Origin: Actinomycetota bacterium | GTDB lineage: Bacteria > Actinomycetota > Aquicultoria > Subteraquimicrobiales > Subteraquimicrobiaceae | Assembly: GCA_030018275.1 (NCBI GenBank) | Contig: JASEGB010000009.1 | Span: 11,911-71,897, forward strand | Direction: 5' to 3' | DNA length: 59,987 nt | Part shown: positions 15,095 through 54,204 of the stretch, piece after piece | How positions within the stretch are numbered: position 1 is the first letter of the stretch | How the letters are laid out: every line of letters starts with the position of its first letter | Position numbers and translations under genes: made by a program | Notes under the pieces: generated by a model | Database searches by the model: none | What the model was told of the DNA's origin: nothing | Seen by the model: the letters and a program-made list of their open reading frames with translations, nothing else

Positions 15095-15304
15095 AGGACA
15101 CTGTTTCTCGACTCTCGAAACTCGAATCTCAAATCTTACTTGTATTATTAACAAGATGGGTTAACTATGGTCGGGGTGAAGTGCTCCGAAAACACCCCGA
15201 AGAACGCTGTCGCATCTACGGGGCAGGCGCGGTTGACTGCAGTGTAAACCTAACTCGTTAATAGTCCACTTGTATGACGAGCGGCGAGGGACGATGTTAA
15301 AGGA
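15095..15304. other. argJ-argB gap with stutter words and a repeat element
   Basis: The left part has repeated CTCGA words (CTCGACTCTCGAAACTCGAATCTC, read here in pieces at 15108-15132). The right part holds the short copy of a repeat family described separately. No coding sequence is apparent. Confidence 0.5.
15205..15275. repeat. Repeat family R2, short copy
   Basis: The left block CGCTGTCGCATCTACGGGG and the right block ACCTAACTCGTTAATAGTCC are both found again at 40409-40620. There they are separated by about 140 bp of extra sequence, so this looks like an internally deleted copy of the same element. Confidence 0.75.
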
Positions 15305-15312
15305 TGAGGAAA

Positions 15313-16203
15313 ATGGAGAATGCATTAACTAAAGCCAAAATTCTGATGGAGGCGCTTCCATACATCAAGGAGTATTATGGGAGAACCATCACCGTAAAAT
15401 ATGGTGGAAGTGCCATGCTCGATGATTCTCTTAAACAATCCATCGCTTCCGATATCGTTTTGATGAGGTATGTGGGCATGAATCCGGTGATTGTTCATGG
15501 AGGAGGTCCCGAGATTTCAAGCTACATGAAGAAGTTGAAAAAAGAGGTAAAATTCGTGGAAGGGCTTCGAGTCACGGATAAGGAAACCATGGACATTGTA
15601 AAAATGGTCCTGGTGGGTAAAGTAAATAAGGAACTCGTTTCCATGATCAATTGCCATGCCCGCCTGCCTGAGCCTGGTGGGCAGGGCAGGATAGCCGTGG
15701 GAATAAGCGGTGACGACGCAGGGTTAATAATAGCTCAAAAGTGTACCACAACCACCGGGCAAGACCTCGGTTTCGCTGGCGAGGTTCAGAGGATCAATAC
15801 GGAAATTCTTCAAAATTTGATAAAGGATGGATTTACCCCAGTCATCGCCTCTGTGGGGGTCGGAGAAGAGGGAGAAAGCTATAATATCAACGCCGACTCT
15901 GTCGCCGCTGAGATTGCTGCAGCGCTGAAAGCTGATAAGATAATCTTTCTTACAAATGTTGATGGATTGTATAAGGATTTTGCCGATAAGAAATCTCTCA
16001 TTTCTGCACTTAACATCGATGAGTGCGAGAGGTTGATAAAGGAGAATTTAATAGGTGAAGGAATGCTACCTAAAGTCAGGGGGTGTATAAGGGCCCTTAA
16101 GGCTGGGGTGAAAAGGGCGCACATCTTAAATGGAACGATCCCACATGCCCTTCTTTTGGAGATTTTCACCGATGAGGGCATTGGAACAATGATCACTGCC
16201 TAA
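15313..16203 (+). CDS. argB: Acetylglutamate kinase
   Basis: ArgB phosphorylates N-acetylglutamate. The kinase motifs VKYGGSAM, VHGGGPEIS and the C-terminal NADSVAAEIA, ATP-site VDGLYKDF and GMLPKVRGC are all present. I prefer ATG 15313 (MENALTKAKILMEALPYI) over the ATG nine bases earlier, because the family starts this way. Around residues 116-126 the sequence NCHARLPEPGGQGRIAVG is longer than the usual N-x-H-G-G-x-AVG. The extra residues are encoded by a GC-rich inverted repeat (15658-15690). Arginine feedback is likely, given the pathway, but I did not identify the N-terminal helix with certainty. Confidence 0.95.
   Translation: MENALTKAKILMEALPYIKEYYGRTITVKYGGSAMLDDSLKQSIASDIVLMRYVGMNPVIVHGGGPEISSYMKKLKKEVKFVEGLRVTDKETMDIVKMVLVGKVNKELVSMINCHARLPEPGGQGRIAVGISGDDAGLIIAQKCTTTTGQDLGFAGEVQRINTEILQNLIKDGFTPVIASVGVGEEGESYNINADSVAAEIAAALKADKIIFLTNVDGLYKDFADKKSLISALNIDECERLIKENLIGEGMLPKVRGCIRALKAGVKRAHILNGTIPHALLLEIFTDEGIGTMITA
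15658..15690 (+). repeat. GC-rich palindromic insert inside argB
   Basis: GCCCGCCTGCC is followed by a short spacer and GGGCAGGGC, forming an imperfect palindrome that stays in frame within argB and adds about nine residues. It resembles the inserts in argD and the DUF1015 gene. Confidence 0.65.
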
Positions 16204-16285: not shown

Positions 16286-16419
16286 AACAGGGATTGTGCC
16301 CTAGACATAAATAAATAGAGTGATCTCTAAGAGCCATCCTTACAGGCGCTAGATGCGCCTTCCAGAATACTCTTATCGAATTATTAAGCGTGAATTATGT
16401 CTAGGCTATAACAGGGATT
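16286..16419. mobile_element. MITE family M1, long copy, with 10-bp target duplication
   Basis: The element (16296-16409, 114 bp) has terminal inverted repeats CCTAGACATAA / TTATGTCTAGG. It is flanked on both sides by the same 10 bp AACAGGGATT (16286-16295 and 16410-16419). A second, shorter copy with the same ends and a different 10-bp duplication is at 54127-54204. The long copy has an internal segment of about 50 bp that is absent from the short one. It sits directly before the argD ATG, so the right duplication now provides the sequence just upstream of that start. Confidence 0.85.
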
Positions 16420-17676
16420 ATGAACAAGGAATTCCAAATGAATGTTGAGGACTTCATTAGCAAAGAGCAACGGTATCTTGTGAATACTTATAGCCGCCTC
16501 CCGGTTGTCTTCTCGCGAGGAAGAGGAAGTAGATTGTGGGATGTAGAGGGCAAAGAATACCTTGATTTCCTGGGAGGATTGGGAGTGGCTAACATTGGAC
16601 ACTGTCACCCGGCGGTAGTTAAAGTGGTTCAGGAGCAGATGGAGAATCTCGTTCACGTTTCCAATCTTTACTACACCATTCCTCAAATCGAGTTAGCTGA
16701 GATGCTGGTGGAAATATCCTTTGGAGATAAATGCTTCTTTTGCAATAGTGGTGCCGAAGCAAACGAGGGAGCCCTGAAATTGGCGCGCAAATACGGCAAG
16801 GAGAATTTTGGCGGGAGCAAATATGAGGTGATCACCGCCTTTCGCTCATTTCACGGTCGAACCCTCAAGACTTTAGCGGCCACGGGGCAACCCGATAAAC
16901 AAAAACCCTTTGAGCCCTTGCCACCGGGTTTCAAGCACGTGCCCCTAAATGATTTGGATGCTCTGAAGGATTGCCTAACCGAGAATACCTGTGCGGTAAT
17001 GCTCGAACCCATCCAAGGGGAAGGCGGAGTATATGAGTGCGAGGTAGATTACATCAAAGGTGTGAGGGAACTTTGTAACCAGGAGAATCTCTTGCTCATT
17101 CTGGATGAAGTTCAAACCGGTATGGGTCGTACGGGAAAGATGTTTGCCTACGAGCATTACGACATCGAGCCTGATGTCATGACTTTAGCAAAGGGTTTGG
17201 GAGGTGGACTACCCATCGGTGCTTTCATCACCCGCGAGGAAGTGGCTCGAGTCTTTAAACCAGGTGATCATGGATCAACATTTGGTGGTGGACCTGTTGC
17301 TACTTCGGCGGCAATGGCCGCATTGAAGGTCCTAAAAAAGGAAGGATTGATAGATAATTGCGCCAACTTAGGAAGTTATTTTAAACAGGAGCTTGAAAAA
17401 CTGAAGGAGAAAAGACCTATAATTAAGGAAGTGAGGGGGAAAGGTTTGATGATTGGAGTCGAATTCCACAGGGACCTGCCTGGCAGACCCGCCTTCCAGA
17501 CGGGTAGGGAGGGTATTGCCCAGGATATTGTACTGAAATTTTTTCATCGCGGGGTGATTGCAAATAATATCGGAGATAACATCGTTCGATTTCTTCCCCC
17601 ACTTTGTATAATGAGGGAGGAAATCGAGACCGTTCTGGGCATATTTGATGAGATTCTCGACGAATTGGAAAGATAG
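16420..17676 (+). CDS. argD: Acetylornithine aminotransferase
   Basis: ArgD is a class III PLP aminotransferase acting on N-acetylornithine semialdehyde. Visible marks are FFCNSGAEANEGALKLARK, the LILDEVQTGMGRTGK motif with the PLP-ring Asp and the PLP lysine in TLAKGLGGGLPIGAF. The length of 418 is slightly above normal. Residues about 351-366 (DLPGRPAFQTGREG) are an extra segment encoded by a palindromic repeat (17474-17511). ATG 16438 (MNVEDFISKE), with AAGGAA upstream, may be the true start, because the ATG at 16420 lies right against the MITE. Confidence 0.95.
   Translation: MNKEFQMNVEDFISKEQRYLVNTYSRLPVVFSRGRGSRLWDVEGKEYLDFLGGLGVANIGHCHPAVVKVVQEQMENLVHVSNLYYTIPQIELAEMLVEISFGDKCFFCNSGAEANEGALKLARKYGKENFGGSKYEVITAFRSFHGRTLKTLAATGQPDKQKPFEPLPPGFKHVPLNDLDALKDCLTENTCAVMLEPIQGEGGVYECEVDYIKGVRELCNQENLLLILDEVQTGMGRTGKMFAYEHYDIEPDVMTLAKGLGGGLPIGAFITREEVARVFKPGDHGSTFGGGPVATSAAMAALKVLKKEGLIDNCANLGSYFKQELEKLKEKRPIIKEVRGKGLMIGVEFHRDLPGRPAFQTGREGIAQDIVLKFFHRGVIANNIGDNIVRFLPPLCIMREEIETVLGIFDEILDELER
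17474..17511 (+). repeat. Palindromic insert inside argD
   Basis: CCTGCCTGGCAG is followed by the hairpin ACCCG...CGGGT. The segment keeps the frame and encodes residues that ArgD proteins normally lack, just before the AQDIV motif. Confidence 0.65.
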
Positions 17677-32235: not shown

Positions 32236-32790
32236 CAGCTGGTTGATATTCCAGCGCCACCAGGTCGCGTTCCCTTTGGGGTGAAGTGATGGGGTGACGC
32301 AGAAGGGTAGGCCATCGCGGCGTTGGTCGTCCGCGTTTAAGCACGTAGGGGGTCCCGACAGGGAAATCCGTCGGGATATTAACCCTAAGGTGCGATGACG
32401 AGCCAATTTAGGTGAAGTGACTGATCCCACACTGCCGAGAAAAACCTCTAGCAAGCGACTTGGTGCCCGTACCGTAAACCGACGCAGGTAGGCGGGTAGA
32501 GGATACTCAGGCGATCGAGCAAACCCTCGTTAAGGAACTCGGCAAAATGACCCCGTAACTTTGGGAGAAGGGGTGCCTCATTAGCGTGAACTCCTCACGG
32601 GGGGAGCGTGAAGAGGTTGCAGAGAAACAGCCCAGGCGACTGTTTACTAAAAACACAGGTCTCTGCTAAGCCGCGAGGCGAAGTATAGGGGCTGACGCCT
32701 GCCCGGTGCCGGAAGGTTAAGGGGACGGGTTATCTCCCGACTTTGTCGGGAGAGAAGCTCTAAACCTAAGCCCCGGTAAACGGCGGCCGT

Positions 32791-33143
32791 AAGAAAGTTG
32801 CGGCTCCTTAGGGGTAACCCTAAGGAAAAAACCTGGCTATATGCTGGGAAGCCTGTCCCCTCAAAGGGGTGTAGTATCTCACGCTACTCCTGGATTTTTA
32901 CGAACATTTGTTCTAAAATGCAAAAATGACTGTAACCAAGGAGTGATAAAGCGTTGGGTGCAGGTAATCAGCAGGAAAGGCTAAGGGCTATTGGATGGGT
33001 CGTAGGTTTTGTAGATGGACAAACAATGAATCGCAGAAGCCCATCTAGGTTCTTAGAATCCTCAGAGGCCATACGCCAGGCCCCTTGCTAATAGCAAGGG
33101 TGAAGATATGGTCCACCCCTCATGGCGATATGAGGACTAGGTG
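32791..33143 (+). other. Group I intron 1 in 23S rRNA (after U1911, E. coli numbering)
   Basis: The 353-nt intron follows exon GGCCGT (32785-32790) and ends in G before the exon AACTATAACGG. Its internal guide GCGGCT (32800-32805) pairs with the exon, with a U.G pair at the splice site (P1). AGTT (32796-32799) pairs with AACT of the 3' exon (P10). The core contains GAAGATATGGTCC, also found in intron 2. Codons at 32993-33047 read GWVVGFVDGQT, which resembles the first LAGLIDADG motif, so it may keep a trace of a lost homing endonuclease. The remaining intron is otherwise ORF-less. Confidence 0.9.
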
Positions 33144-33163
33144 AACTATAACGGTCCTAAGGT

Positions 33164-33428
33164 TAGTATGTGCTTGCCTTAGTAAAATCCGGCTATATGC
33201 TGGGAAGTCCCGTGTATCCGGCGGTACCTTGAGAAGGTAACAATCCGACCGGTGGGGATGATCAGCAGGAAAGACCCCCGATATATCGGGGGAATCCTCA
33301 GAGATCATACGCCGGACACCTAGGTGTGAGCTTGGGTGAAGATATGGTCCGTACCTCCTAGCGATAGGAGGAGACCGGCAGAAATGACGGTCCGCTCCGA
33401 TGATTCGAAGTCATCAAGTAACAGACAG
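33164..33428 (+). other. Group I intron 2 in 23S rRNA (after U1931)
   Basis: The 265-nt intron lies between exon CCTAAGGT and exon AGCGAAATTCC. The guide GCCTTAG (33176-33182) pairs with CTAAGGT, again with U.G at the splice site, and the last intron base is G. It has no ORF; a hairpin CCCCCGATATATCGGGGG occupies the peripheral loop where an ORF might sit. Long matches to intron 1 (CGGCTATATGCTGGGAAG-type, ATCAGCAGGAAAG, AATCCTCAGAG, GAAGATATGGTCC) show that the two share ancestry. Position 1931 is a known bacterial intron site, used in Thermotoga. Confidence 0.92.
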
Positions 33429-36169: not shown

Positions 36170-36186
36170 CGCCTGCCGGCAGGTGG
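36170..36186. repeat. GC-rich palindrome CGCCTGCCGGCAGG
   Basis: An intergenic palindrome sharing the core GCCTGCCGGCAGG with the insert inside the DUF1015 gene at 39949-39972. Confidence 0.7.
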
Positions 36187-38928: not shown

Positions 38929-40260
38929 TCATTCGAGTTTATACATAACAAGACCCGAAAGAAGTTTTGGGTAGAAGAACGTGGACTTTTGTGGCATTAT
39001 TTCACGATTGTTGGCTATCTTCTTAATCTGGTTAATTTTGGTTGGATTGAGGAAGAATGCAATCTGATATTCTCCTCGATTTATGAGCTCAATTGCCTCT
39101 TCTTCATGGATGGTGTATTTGATGCTATCCTCAAGATCTGTTTTTTTAAGACCCAATATACGGCCGAACAATAGATTATGAAGGATGATTACATCCAATT
39201 TTTTCCACTCCGCTGAATGGCCGGGACCCAATATCTCATCGATGGTTTTTTCCTCACGTGCCGTCAGCAGGTAGTATTTATCGCCCCAATACATCCCAAA
39301 CGCGCGATCCTTTCGCTTTTCCCTCAATTTTTCAAGGAATTTCTCTCTCTGCATCGTTTCATTCGCTCGGTTGAATTGCAGTATTTGAAGATCAAAGAAT
39401 TCCTCGATCTTTTGTAGAAGCCTGTGGAAATTAAGTTCCTTTATATTTCTTACCACTCTATGGATGGGCAAAATCGTTAGTTTCTCACCATCCATGTTCA
39501 CGAGCATCATGATGACATAGTCGTAAACCTCTGTTAATTCCGGAAATTTTTTCCTCATCTCATTTCTGAAGTTGAGAGCAGTTTCATATCGATGGTGACC
39601 ATCGGCTATGTAAAGTTCTTTGTCCTTGATTATTTGGACTATTTTATCTATCGTTTTTTGTTCGTTTATCCTCCACAATTTATGCCTTACGCCATCTTCG
39701 TCCCTTACATCGATTATCGGTTGCTCTTTCGCTTTAGCCTCTAAGATGTGATCGATACCCCCTCGTGGATCGGAATATAAAGCTAAGATTTGGCAGAAAT
39801 GAGCCTTACATGCTCTAAGCAGGTTCAATCGATCGATCTTGGTTTTGGACTCTGTTCTTTCGTGGGGAAATATCTTCCCGTTGTCAAAATCCTCCAATTT
39901 AGCTAAAGCAATGAATCCCATTCTCCTTTTTCTTTCCCCGGTTTTCCATGCCTGCCGGCAGGCAGGTAGGGAATATTCCTGCTGGTAAAGGTAGATTGCA
40001 GGCTTTTCATCCTCTCGCAACACCCCTTCCCTCAACCACCCCTGGAAAAAGGTTGCTGCTCGTGTGTACTTGTTGTTGACTGCATTGTCACCGGGATACT
40101 CTTTCCCCAGTATTAGGCGAATTACATTATACTCACTGAGATTGTAGTATTTTCCCTGTTCTCTTGGAGAAATTACGTCATAGGGTGGAGCTACAACTCG
40201 CTCTAAATTCACCTTTTCTTCGTTGTAGAGAATCCCTTTAAAAGCTCTGATTTCAGCCAA
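38929..40260 (-). CDS. DUF1015 family protein
   Basis: The protein begins LAEIRAFKGILYN, the usual DUF1015 N-terminus, with VAPPYDVISPREQGKYY and the central YIADGHHRYETAL. The function is unknown; DUF1015 occurs in anaerobes and has been linked by context to amino-acid metabolism. I prefer the TTG at 40260 (10 nt after GGAGG) over the ATG at 40278, which would put the ribosome site in the gene. Residues about 97-108 (SLPACRQAWKTG) are an extra segment encoded by the GC-rich palindrome at 39949-39972. The same palindrome core is intergenic at 36170. Confidence 0.85.
   Translation of the reverse strand: MAEIRAFKGILYNEEKVNLERVVAPPYDVISPREQGKYYNLSEYNVIRLILGKEYPGDNAVNNKYTRAATFFQGWLREGVLREDEKPAIYLYQQEYSLPACRQAWKTGERKRRMGFIALAKLEDFDNGKIFPHERTESKTKIDRLNLLRACKAHFCQILALYSDPRGGIDHILEAKAKEQPIIDVRDEDGVRHKLWRINEQKTIDKIVQIIKDKELYIADGHHRYETALNFRNEMRKKFPELTEVYDYVIMMLVNMDGEKLTILPIHRVVRNIKELNFHRLLQKIEEFFDLQILQFNRANETMQREKFLEKLREKRKDRAFGMYWGDKYYLLTAREEKTIDEILGPGHSAEWKKLDVIILHNLLFGRILGLKKTDLEDSIKYTIHEEEAIELINRGEYQIAFFLNPTKINQIKKIANNREIMPQKSTFFYPKLLSGLVMYKLE
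39949..39972. repeat. GC-rich palindrome inside the DUF1015 gene
   Basis: CCTGCCGGCAGGCAGG sits in frame in the minus-strand gene and encodes LPACRQA. The insertion lies between the conserved QEY and the RRMGFIAL segment. Confidence 0.75.
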
Positions 40261-40280
40261 AAAGACAAGTCCTCCCATCA

Positions 40281-40408
40281 GAAATAATAATGGAATTTTC
40301 CCGTAGGATCTCCGTTACAGTTCCCACTTGCATGCTTTTAATTTTAAGTTAGCCTACCGGTCTTAAGCAATATGAATTTAAGATCAGTCAAGAGTCATGC
40401 GTCAAGGG
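40281..40408. other. Upstream region of the DUF1015 gene
   Basis: No coding sequence is apparent. It contains the stutter AGTCAAGAGTCATGCGTCAAG just before repeat family R2. Confidence 0.4.
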
Positions 40409-40620
40409 CGCTGTCGCGTCTACGGGGCAGGCGCAGTTACGGCCGTTTACCCCGTTGGCGAGTGAAACGAGTCCTTCGGGGCTGCTCGGGTCTCGCCTCG
40501 CTACAAAACTCTGAGTATGTTTTAAAGGTTTTCATGGGCGAGGCTCCGACACTTTCTTAACACTTACCCTCCTTAAAATGTCAAAAGTGTTAACCTAACT
40601 CGTTAATAGTCCATCTGTAT
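40409..40620. repeat. Repeat family R2, long copy
   Basis: The left block CGCTGTCGCGTCTACGGGG and the right block ACCTAACTCGTTAATAGTCC match the short copy at 15205-15275. The central about 140 bp is extra, with its own GC-rich hairpins (GGCGAG / CTCGCC). The right end stops 2 bp before the stop codon of the AmmeMemoRadiSam protein B gene. Confidence 0.75.
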
Positions 40621-54126: not shown

Positions 54127-54204
54127 AATTATACCTGCCCAAGACATAAATAGAGTGATCTCGAATTATTAAGCGTGAATTATGTCTAGGCTATAATTAT
54201 ACCT
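54127..54204. mobile_element. MITE family M1, short copy, with 10-bp target duplication
   Basis: The 58-bp element (54137-54194) shares its ends and GAGTGATCTC / GAATTATTAAGCGTG with the copy at 16296-16409. It is flanked by AATTATACCT on both sides (54127-54136 and 54195-54204). It lacks the internal segment of the longer copy. It lies upstream of the rhomboid gene on the minus strand. Confidence 0.85.

Follow-up and report, generated by a model that had tools for sequence, protein, structure and literature searches.

The argB, argD and DUF1015 genes of an Actinomycetota bacterium (Subteraquimicrobiaceae; assembly GCA_030018275.1) each hold a short extra segment, encoded by a GC-rich sequence built on CCTGCC and GGCAGG, and the core of this palindrome also stands alone between genes. 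Are these segments native loops, or in-frame insertions of a repeated DNA element, as a sequence-only reading had proposed in recalling the Rickettsia palindromic elements (RPEs)? And, if they are insertions, what kind of element do they represent? The window, i.e., the whole stretch of DNA analysed, comprises 59,987 nt (JASEGB010000009.1, positions 11,911-71,897) of the source genome, termed here G000 (1.49 Mb; 1,491,089 bases). Two genomes of the same genus, G001 (ArgB 98% identical) and G002 (93%), were aligned to G000.

The window copies and their family in the source genome

The palindromic sequences reported earlier are present at all four places, with small shifts of coordinates only. 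The host genes and copies are the following:

15304-16203, plus strand: argB, N-acetylglutamate kinase (NAGK), first host gene (PF00696; NAGK structures)
15658-15690, plus strand: palindromic insert of argB, old and decayed, within HARLPEPGGQGR; net 9 amino acids
16420-17676, plus strand: argD, acetylornithine aminotransferase, second host gene (PF00202; ArgD structures)
17475-17508, plus strand: compound insert of argD, CCTGCCTGGCAGACCCGCCTTCCAGACGGGTAGG, 12 amino acids; remains of an outer CCTGCCTG with a nested variant 2
36171-36184, no strand: intergenic copy of the palindrome core, GCCTGCCGGCAGGT; exact core match
38929-40278, minus strand: DUF1015 gene, third host gene (PF06245)
39946-39966, minus strand: DUF1015 insert, recent, 21 nt, coding strand CCTGCCTGCCGGCAGGCATGG; absent in G001

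A search of the entire genome revealed 12 exact copies of the 12-mer CCTGCCGGCAGG and none of the reversed pattern, and a gapped search for CCTGCC-N(0-30)-GGCAGG gave 36 matches versus 1 for the control. Within the window, the 13-mer GCCTGCCGGCAGG (up to two mismatches) has five matches where 0.72 are expected, a number reached by none of 100 shuffles. The gapped-search matches and the window copies together provided the 26 family-like sites examined in G000, which are a lower bound for decayed copies, only the stretches around matches having been read. Seventeen of the 26 fall in genes with a Pfam match, distributed as follows:

Replication, repair and translation: PolB, RecO, LeuRS, DNA polymerase III alpha, DnaA
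Other genes: metallophosphoesterase, phosphoglucose isomerase (PGI), amidohydrolase, DUF364, glycosyltransferase, P-type ATPase, PP2C phosphatase
Insert at the C-terminal end: RmlD, MraW
In the window: ArgB, ArgD, DUF1015

Empty sites and conservation of the reading frame

The argB insert, with its CCTGCC...GGCAGG ends (CCTGCCTGAGCCTGGTGGGCAGG at 15663-15685), gives the protein 9 residues more than relatives of other families, aligns to a gap in the solved NAGK structures (PDB alignment) and is missing from 16 orthologues of the class; in G002 it is 15 nt longer than in G000. A genome of another family (G003) has an insert of the same length in diverged sequence, and the ArgB insert is therefore old. 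Independent palindromes at the G003 site were considered and rejected, as the equal length of 9 residues looks inherited. Taken by itself, the argB copy shows no folding advantage over shuffled sequences (z = -0.59), and it was assigned to the family because of its ends and its position, its decay being too far advanced for a folding signal.

The argD insert extends the protein by 12 residues beyond the Thermotoga ArgD and again aligns to a gap in the solved structures. It contains a nested copy of variant 2 at 17488-17508 (CCCGCCTTCCAGACGGGTAGG, three mismatches to CCCGCCTGCCGGACGGGCAGG, 0.01 expected). At the same site, G002 bears a perfect 20-mer, CCTGCCTGCCGGCAGGCAGG, and is 18 nt shorter than G000 and G001, both of which have the three-mismatch copy. 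The intergenic core (GCCTGCCGGCAGG at 36171-36183) also occurs in G001. In DUF1015, the G001 gene reads TTCCCTA directly followed by AAAACC, and G000 holds 21 extra bases, exactly 7 residues, at this junction; the insert recurs in G002 with one mismatch and is missing from other families. Presence in G000 and G002 with absence in G001 may reflect precise loss rather than gain. The orthologues compared for the three genes did not retain the same residues without palindromic coding, the pattern that native loops would leave.

Clean empty sites of 21 nt each were detected within the genus for DUF1015, DnaA, DUF364, PolB, RecO and PP2C, and one of 27 nt for PGI. In DnaA and DUF364 exactly 21 nt of G000 are missing in both G001 and G002, and these inserts would most simply be gains in G000. 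Length differs between species at 13 internal coding sites, and does so by multiples of three at all 13 and in all 17 comparisons made there (15, 18, 21, 24, 27, 30, 33 or 42 nt); this count excludes RmlD, whose 20 nt lie at the extreme end of the gene, and also the P-type ATPase, whose local alignment is ambiguous. Only one of five non-coding length differences is a multiple of three. The in-frame insertion of palindromes put forward by the sequence-only reading is thus supported, both by the number of sites in identified genes and by these intragenic lengths.

Could the segments nevertheless be native protein loops, whose GC-rich codons are palindromic by chance? The lack of a folding signal in the ArgB copy would agree with this, as would sites such as L272 that are unchanged in G000, G001 and G002, and for single decayed sites this reading may hold. 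For DUF1015, DnaA, PP2C, PolB and RecG it is refuted by the empty sites in close relatives, and it conflicts with the recurrence of one nucleotide sequence in genes that are unrelated and in different frames and orientations; as a general explanation it is very improbable. We consider instead, with a probability of roughly 0.8, that the copies belong to one family of mobile DNA elements that are non-autonomous, form hairpins and are very short, at 20-21 bp. Mobility is suggested by the precise presence or absence of copies between close relatives.

The P-type ATPase site deserves separate mention. The gene carries the palindrome in G000 (L009:1497), and its counterpart in G002 (L315) carries GGTCTAT repeats, an insert of similar length but unrelated to the palindrome. 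Two unlike inserts at one site suggest that there may be insertion-tolerant hot spots.

The unit and its distribution among phyla and phages

Fresh copies consist either of the 20-mer, which is a perfect palindrome, or of 21-mers, namely CCTGCCTGCCGGCAGGCACGG, the DUF1015 form ending in CATGG, and variant 2. Read directly, the 20-mer and the 21-mers are free of stop codons in all six frames. One copy adds about 7 residues (xLPAGRQ, xCLPAGR or PACRQAG); the 21-mer is frame-neutral by itself, whereas the 20-mer requires one further base, and yet the net gain is 21 in PP2C, PolB and RecG. As DNA, the 20-mer forms a hairpin of -8 kcal/mol (z = -2.3 against shuffles). Copies are preceded by a purine and followed by a pyrimidine, A...T being the commonest pair (41 of 163); the flanks show no other consensus. 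No target-site duplication of 3 bp was found, and identity over 1 bp is in weak excess (43 versus 30 expected).

Copies are nested in the centre of other copies in L077, ArgD and L268. By eye, copies seemed to prefer hairpin loops strongly (tRNA D-arm fragments, nested repeats), but matched controls reduced this to about twofold: 11 of 53 copies lie in hairpin-forming sites, against 8.9% in non-coding DNA, a weak excess. Transfer RNA genes were likewise considered as targets and rejected, as ARAGORN, run on the joined flanks, returned a single clean tRNA, the rest being tRNA fragments. The clean case is a tRNA-Met on a viral contig (L051), with the 20-mer in the variable loop. The fragments, from Patescibacteria and Bacteroidota, have the 20-mer in their D-arm part (L074, L098, L105, L154 with two copies, L163 and L170). 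The 20-mer is also nested in other repeat-like hairpins (L082:940, L136:5362, L147:188, L148, L160:3999 and L177:7776), whose types include GTCATTGCGAGGAGCG...CAGCGACGAAGCAATCTC and ATTCCC...GGGAAT, a hint that palindromic repeats common to several phyla may form a broader set.

At least 116 stretches from named genomes, belonging to many phyla, contain the exact 20-mer. According to their record titles, the matches listed include many Patescibacteria, Omnitrophota, Bacteroidota, Nitrospirota, Elusimicrobia and WOR-1, and further Ignavibacteria, Verrucomicrobia, Planctomycetes, Chloroflexota and Desulfobacteria; an isolated match in a GC-rich genome may be due to chance, and no Rickettsia titles appear among the matches listed. 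In an even sample of 150 genomes of the window's phylum, the 16-mer core TGCCTGCCGGCAGGCA was found in 6, and among 116 sampled Patescibacteria in 23, with 136 copies in all; the reversed core was found in neither sample. The maximum of 34 copies in 0.9 Mb belongs to the Patescibacteria genome at the centre of the sample, a known positive beforehand. Variant 2 recurs unchanged in Peregrinibacteria, Nitrospirota and Mucilaginibacter, and in a further Patescibacteria genome. The family therefore extends beyond the lineage of the window, and at least two of its variants are common, letter for letter, to several phyla.

Insertion into genes recurs in these distant hosts. In a Yanofskybacteria genome, RecG has an in-frame insert of exactly 7 residues, RLPAGRQ, which relatives with 87-89% identity do not have. 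Chorismate synthase carries in-frame copies in two genomes, apparently in the same loop (L123, identified by Pfam; L401, by motifs), and other in-frame hosts outside the lineage are a pseudouridine synthase (two copies), a phosphoglucomutase/phosphomannomutase and a Mur ligase.

Viral contigs contain the exact 20-mer in 33 stretches and variant 2 in 17; the reversed 20-mer occurs in none. The phage contigs of IMG 2820306284 (stretches L428-L434, L440 and L441) hold 38 copies of variant 2 (up to three mismatches) in 67.7 kb, i.e., 0.56 per kb. Open reading frames of 120 codons or more contain 31 of these copies, which occur there in several frames and in both orientations and leave the frames open; 37 of the 38 copies follow a purine. 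Five are found in one tape-measure gene, and others in the genes for tail sheath, head maturation protease and minor head protein.

Since most carriers are metagenome-assembled genomes and an adapter would also give an identical short sequence across phyla, a sequencing or assembly artefact has to be weighed. It can scarcely be credited, as copies in L006, L273 and DUF1015 occupy orthologous positions in different species and have acquired substitutions, frame is kept inside genes, and the Bacteroidota carriers include cultured isolates as well as the complete chromosome of Maribacter halichondriae. A second alternative dispenses with any dedicated enzyme and attributes the copies to accidents of replication or repair, e.g., template switching or gene-conversion-like copying of hairpin tips. 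Nesting, the weak excess in hairpin sites and the lack of a target duplication or a linked gene would suit such accidents, but they leave unexplained why the same 20 or 21 letters appear across phyla with the reversed sequence absent, why so many unrelated coding sites are involved, and why a purine/pyrimidine rule applies; we regard this explanation as improbable.

The proposed mobilising enzyme and the relation to known repeats

If the copies are mobile elements, an enzyme acting in trans would move the hairpin, probably as single-stranded DNA, and would place it mostly after a purine and before a pyrimidine, duplicating 1 bp of the target or none. Copies may travel between hosts on transferred DNA, phages included, and selection would retain the insertions that keep frame and land in tolerant loops. 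Copies are seen to nest in one another and to decay. Against the mobile-element reading stand the lack of a linked mobiliser gene in the searches described below and the lack of a clear target-site duplication.

One candidate system is that of the GTAG-tagged REP elements, for whose movement tyrosine transposases of the Y1/HUH type (RAYTs) act in trans. The size of the palindrome, its hairpin and its intragenic insertion fit this system. Y1_Tnp (PF01797) is equally frequent among relatives and among the named genomes that bear the element (30 of 40 each), G000 itself has three matches, and one copy (L182) lies about 200 bp from an IS200-type gene. The domain is no commoner, however, in relatives with two or more copies (8 of 10) than in the rest (22 of 30); G002, with a completeness of 97%, holds 8 copies and lacks any Y1 match; a Y1 gene is close to the 20-mer in only one of the 116 named stretches listed; and Y1 loci carry the palindrome at background rate. 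The GTAG tag is absent as well: of the 246 ends of 123 copies, 6 have GTAG within 8 nt (5.1 expected) and 1 has CGTC within that distance (4.2 expected). Local linkage to RAYT/IS200 transposases was accordingly rejected, three kinds of test having found none, and movement by RAYTs is unlikely. Nor did any recurrent gene appear beside the copies in five copy-rich Patescibacteria. A more specific proposal, to which we give somewhat less than even odds, is that of frame-neutral micro-elements of 21 nt, stop-free in six frames, untagged, shared across phyla and phages and reaching about one copy per 2 kb in coding genes, whose enzyme would be neither a RAYT nor any described transposase.

Most REPs are hairpins of 20-40 bp that carry an unpaired tag, GTAG or CGTC, on one side, and some are intragenic, many of these in replication and repair genes (PMC3733652). 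Like the GTAG REPs, the palindrome forms a hairpin within this size range, is repeated in the genome and is in part intragenic; unlike them, it is mostly perfect, has no GTAG tag and no adjacent or flanked RAYT, and in G000 lies in coding genes as often as between genes. CGTC REPs, which include Rickettsia RPE-4 and RPE-6, are known from several phyla and apparently have no dedicated transposase (PMC3733652). The palindrome resembles them in being short, without a dedicated transposase and present in several phyla, and differs in having no CGTC ends and in being one sequence across phyla, whereas CGTC REPs are family-specific. MITEs are larger (70-300 bp) and end in inverted repeats of 15-30 bp (PMC3733652); the palindrome is equally non-autonomous, dispersed inverted-repeat DNA, but it is a single unit of 20-21 bp with no 3-bp duplication and a weak 1-bp excess.

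The likeness to RPEs proposed earlier stands in part. A palindromic repeat does lie in frame within protein-coding genes (17 of 26 sites, multiples of three), but the terminal CGTC tag of RPE-4 and RPE-6 is absent, the unit is only 20-21 bp long (RPE-1 is longer; PMC3733652), and its letters are the same in many phyla and in phages. The family is therefore called RPE-like here, not RPE.

The GC clusters of yeast mitochondrial DNA are likewise short GC-rich palindromes that spread into genes, in frame in VAR1; they are organellar, longer and of unrelated sequence. In the open-access papers searched, neither the DNA cores nor the peptides LPAGRQ, PACRQAG or CLPAGR were found, and a prior description in subscription papers or preprints is possible. 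The family looks like an undescribed miniature mobile element. Its kind, that of intragenic REP/RPE-like palindromes, is already known; what is unusual is the tiny frame-neutral unit, the identity across phyla and phages, and the absence of a linked mobiliser gene in the searches made here.

Until now, in-frame palindromic insertions were an oddity known from Rickettsia and a handful of REP-rich genomes. The single sequence family described here occupies conserved, presumably essential genes of many phyla, including the streamlined Patescibacteria, and offers a large natural collection of conserved proteins that tolerate 7 inserted residues. It probably also marks the exchange of DNA between distant bacteria of groundwater and sediment. 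Inserts of the LPAGRQ type are to be expected in annotation and structure prediction of carrier lineages, and the question of which enzyme inserts a 21-bp hairpin can be approached through the cultured Bacteroidota carriers and the phage contigs.

Other repeats and insertions were observed in the window. A MITE-like repeat bounded by CCTAGACATAA and TTATGTCTAGG occurs at 16300-16405 and at 54139-54190, the latter copy being internally shortened, with an identical right part of 36 nt. A dispersed intergenic repeat, CGCTGTCGC.TCTACGGGGCAGGCGC ... AACCTAACTCGTTAATAGTCCA, occurs at 15200-15275 and 40404-40620 with different internal spacing. Near the window start, an exact direct repeat of 55 nt is found at 3-57 and 212-266 (209 nt apart), and the 23S rRNA gene contains two tandem group I introns at 32781-33371 (Rfam RF00028).
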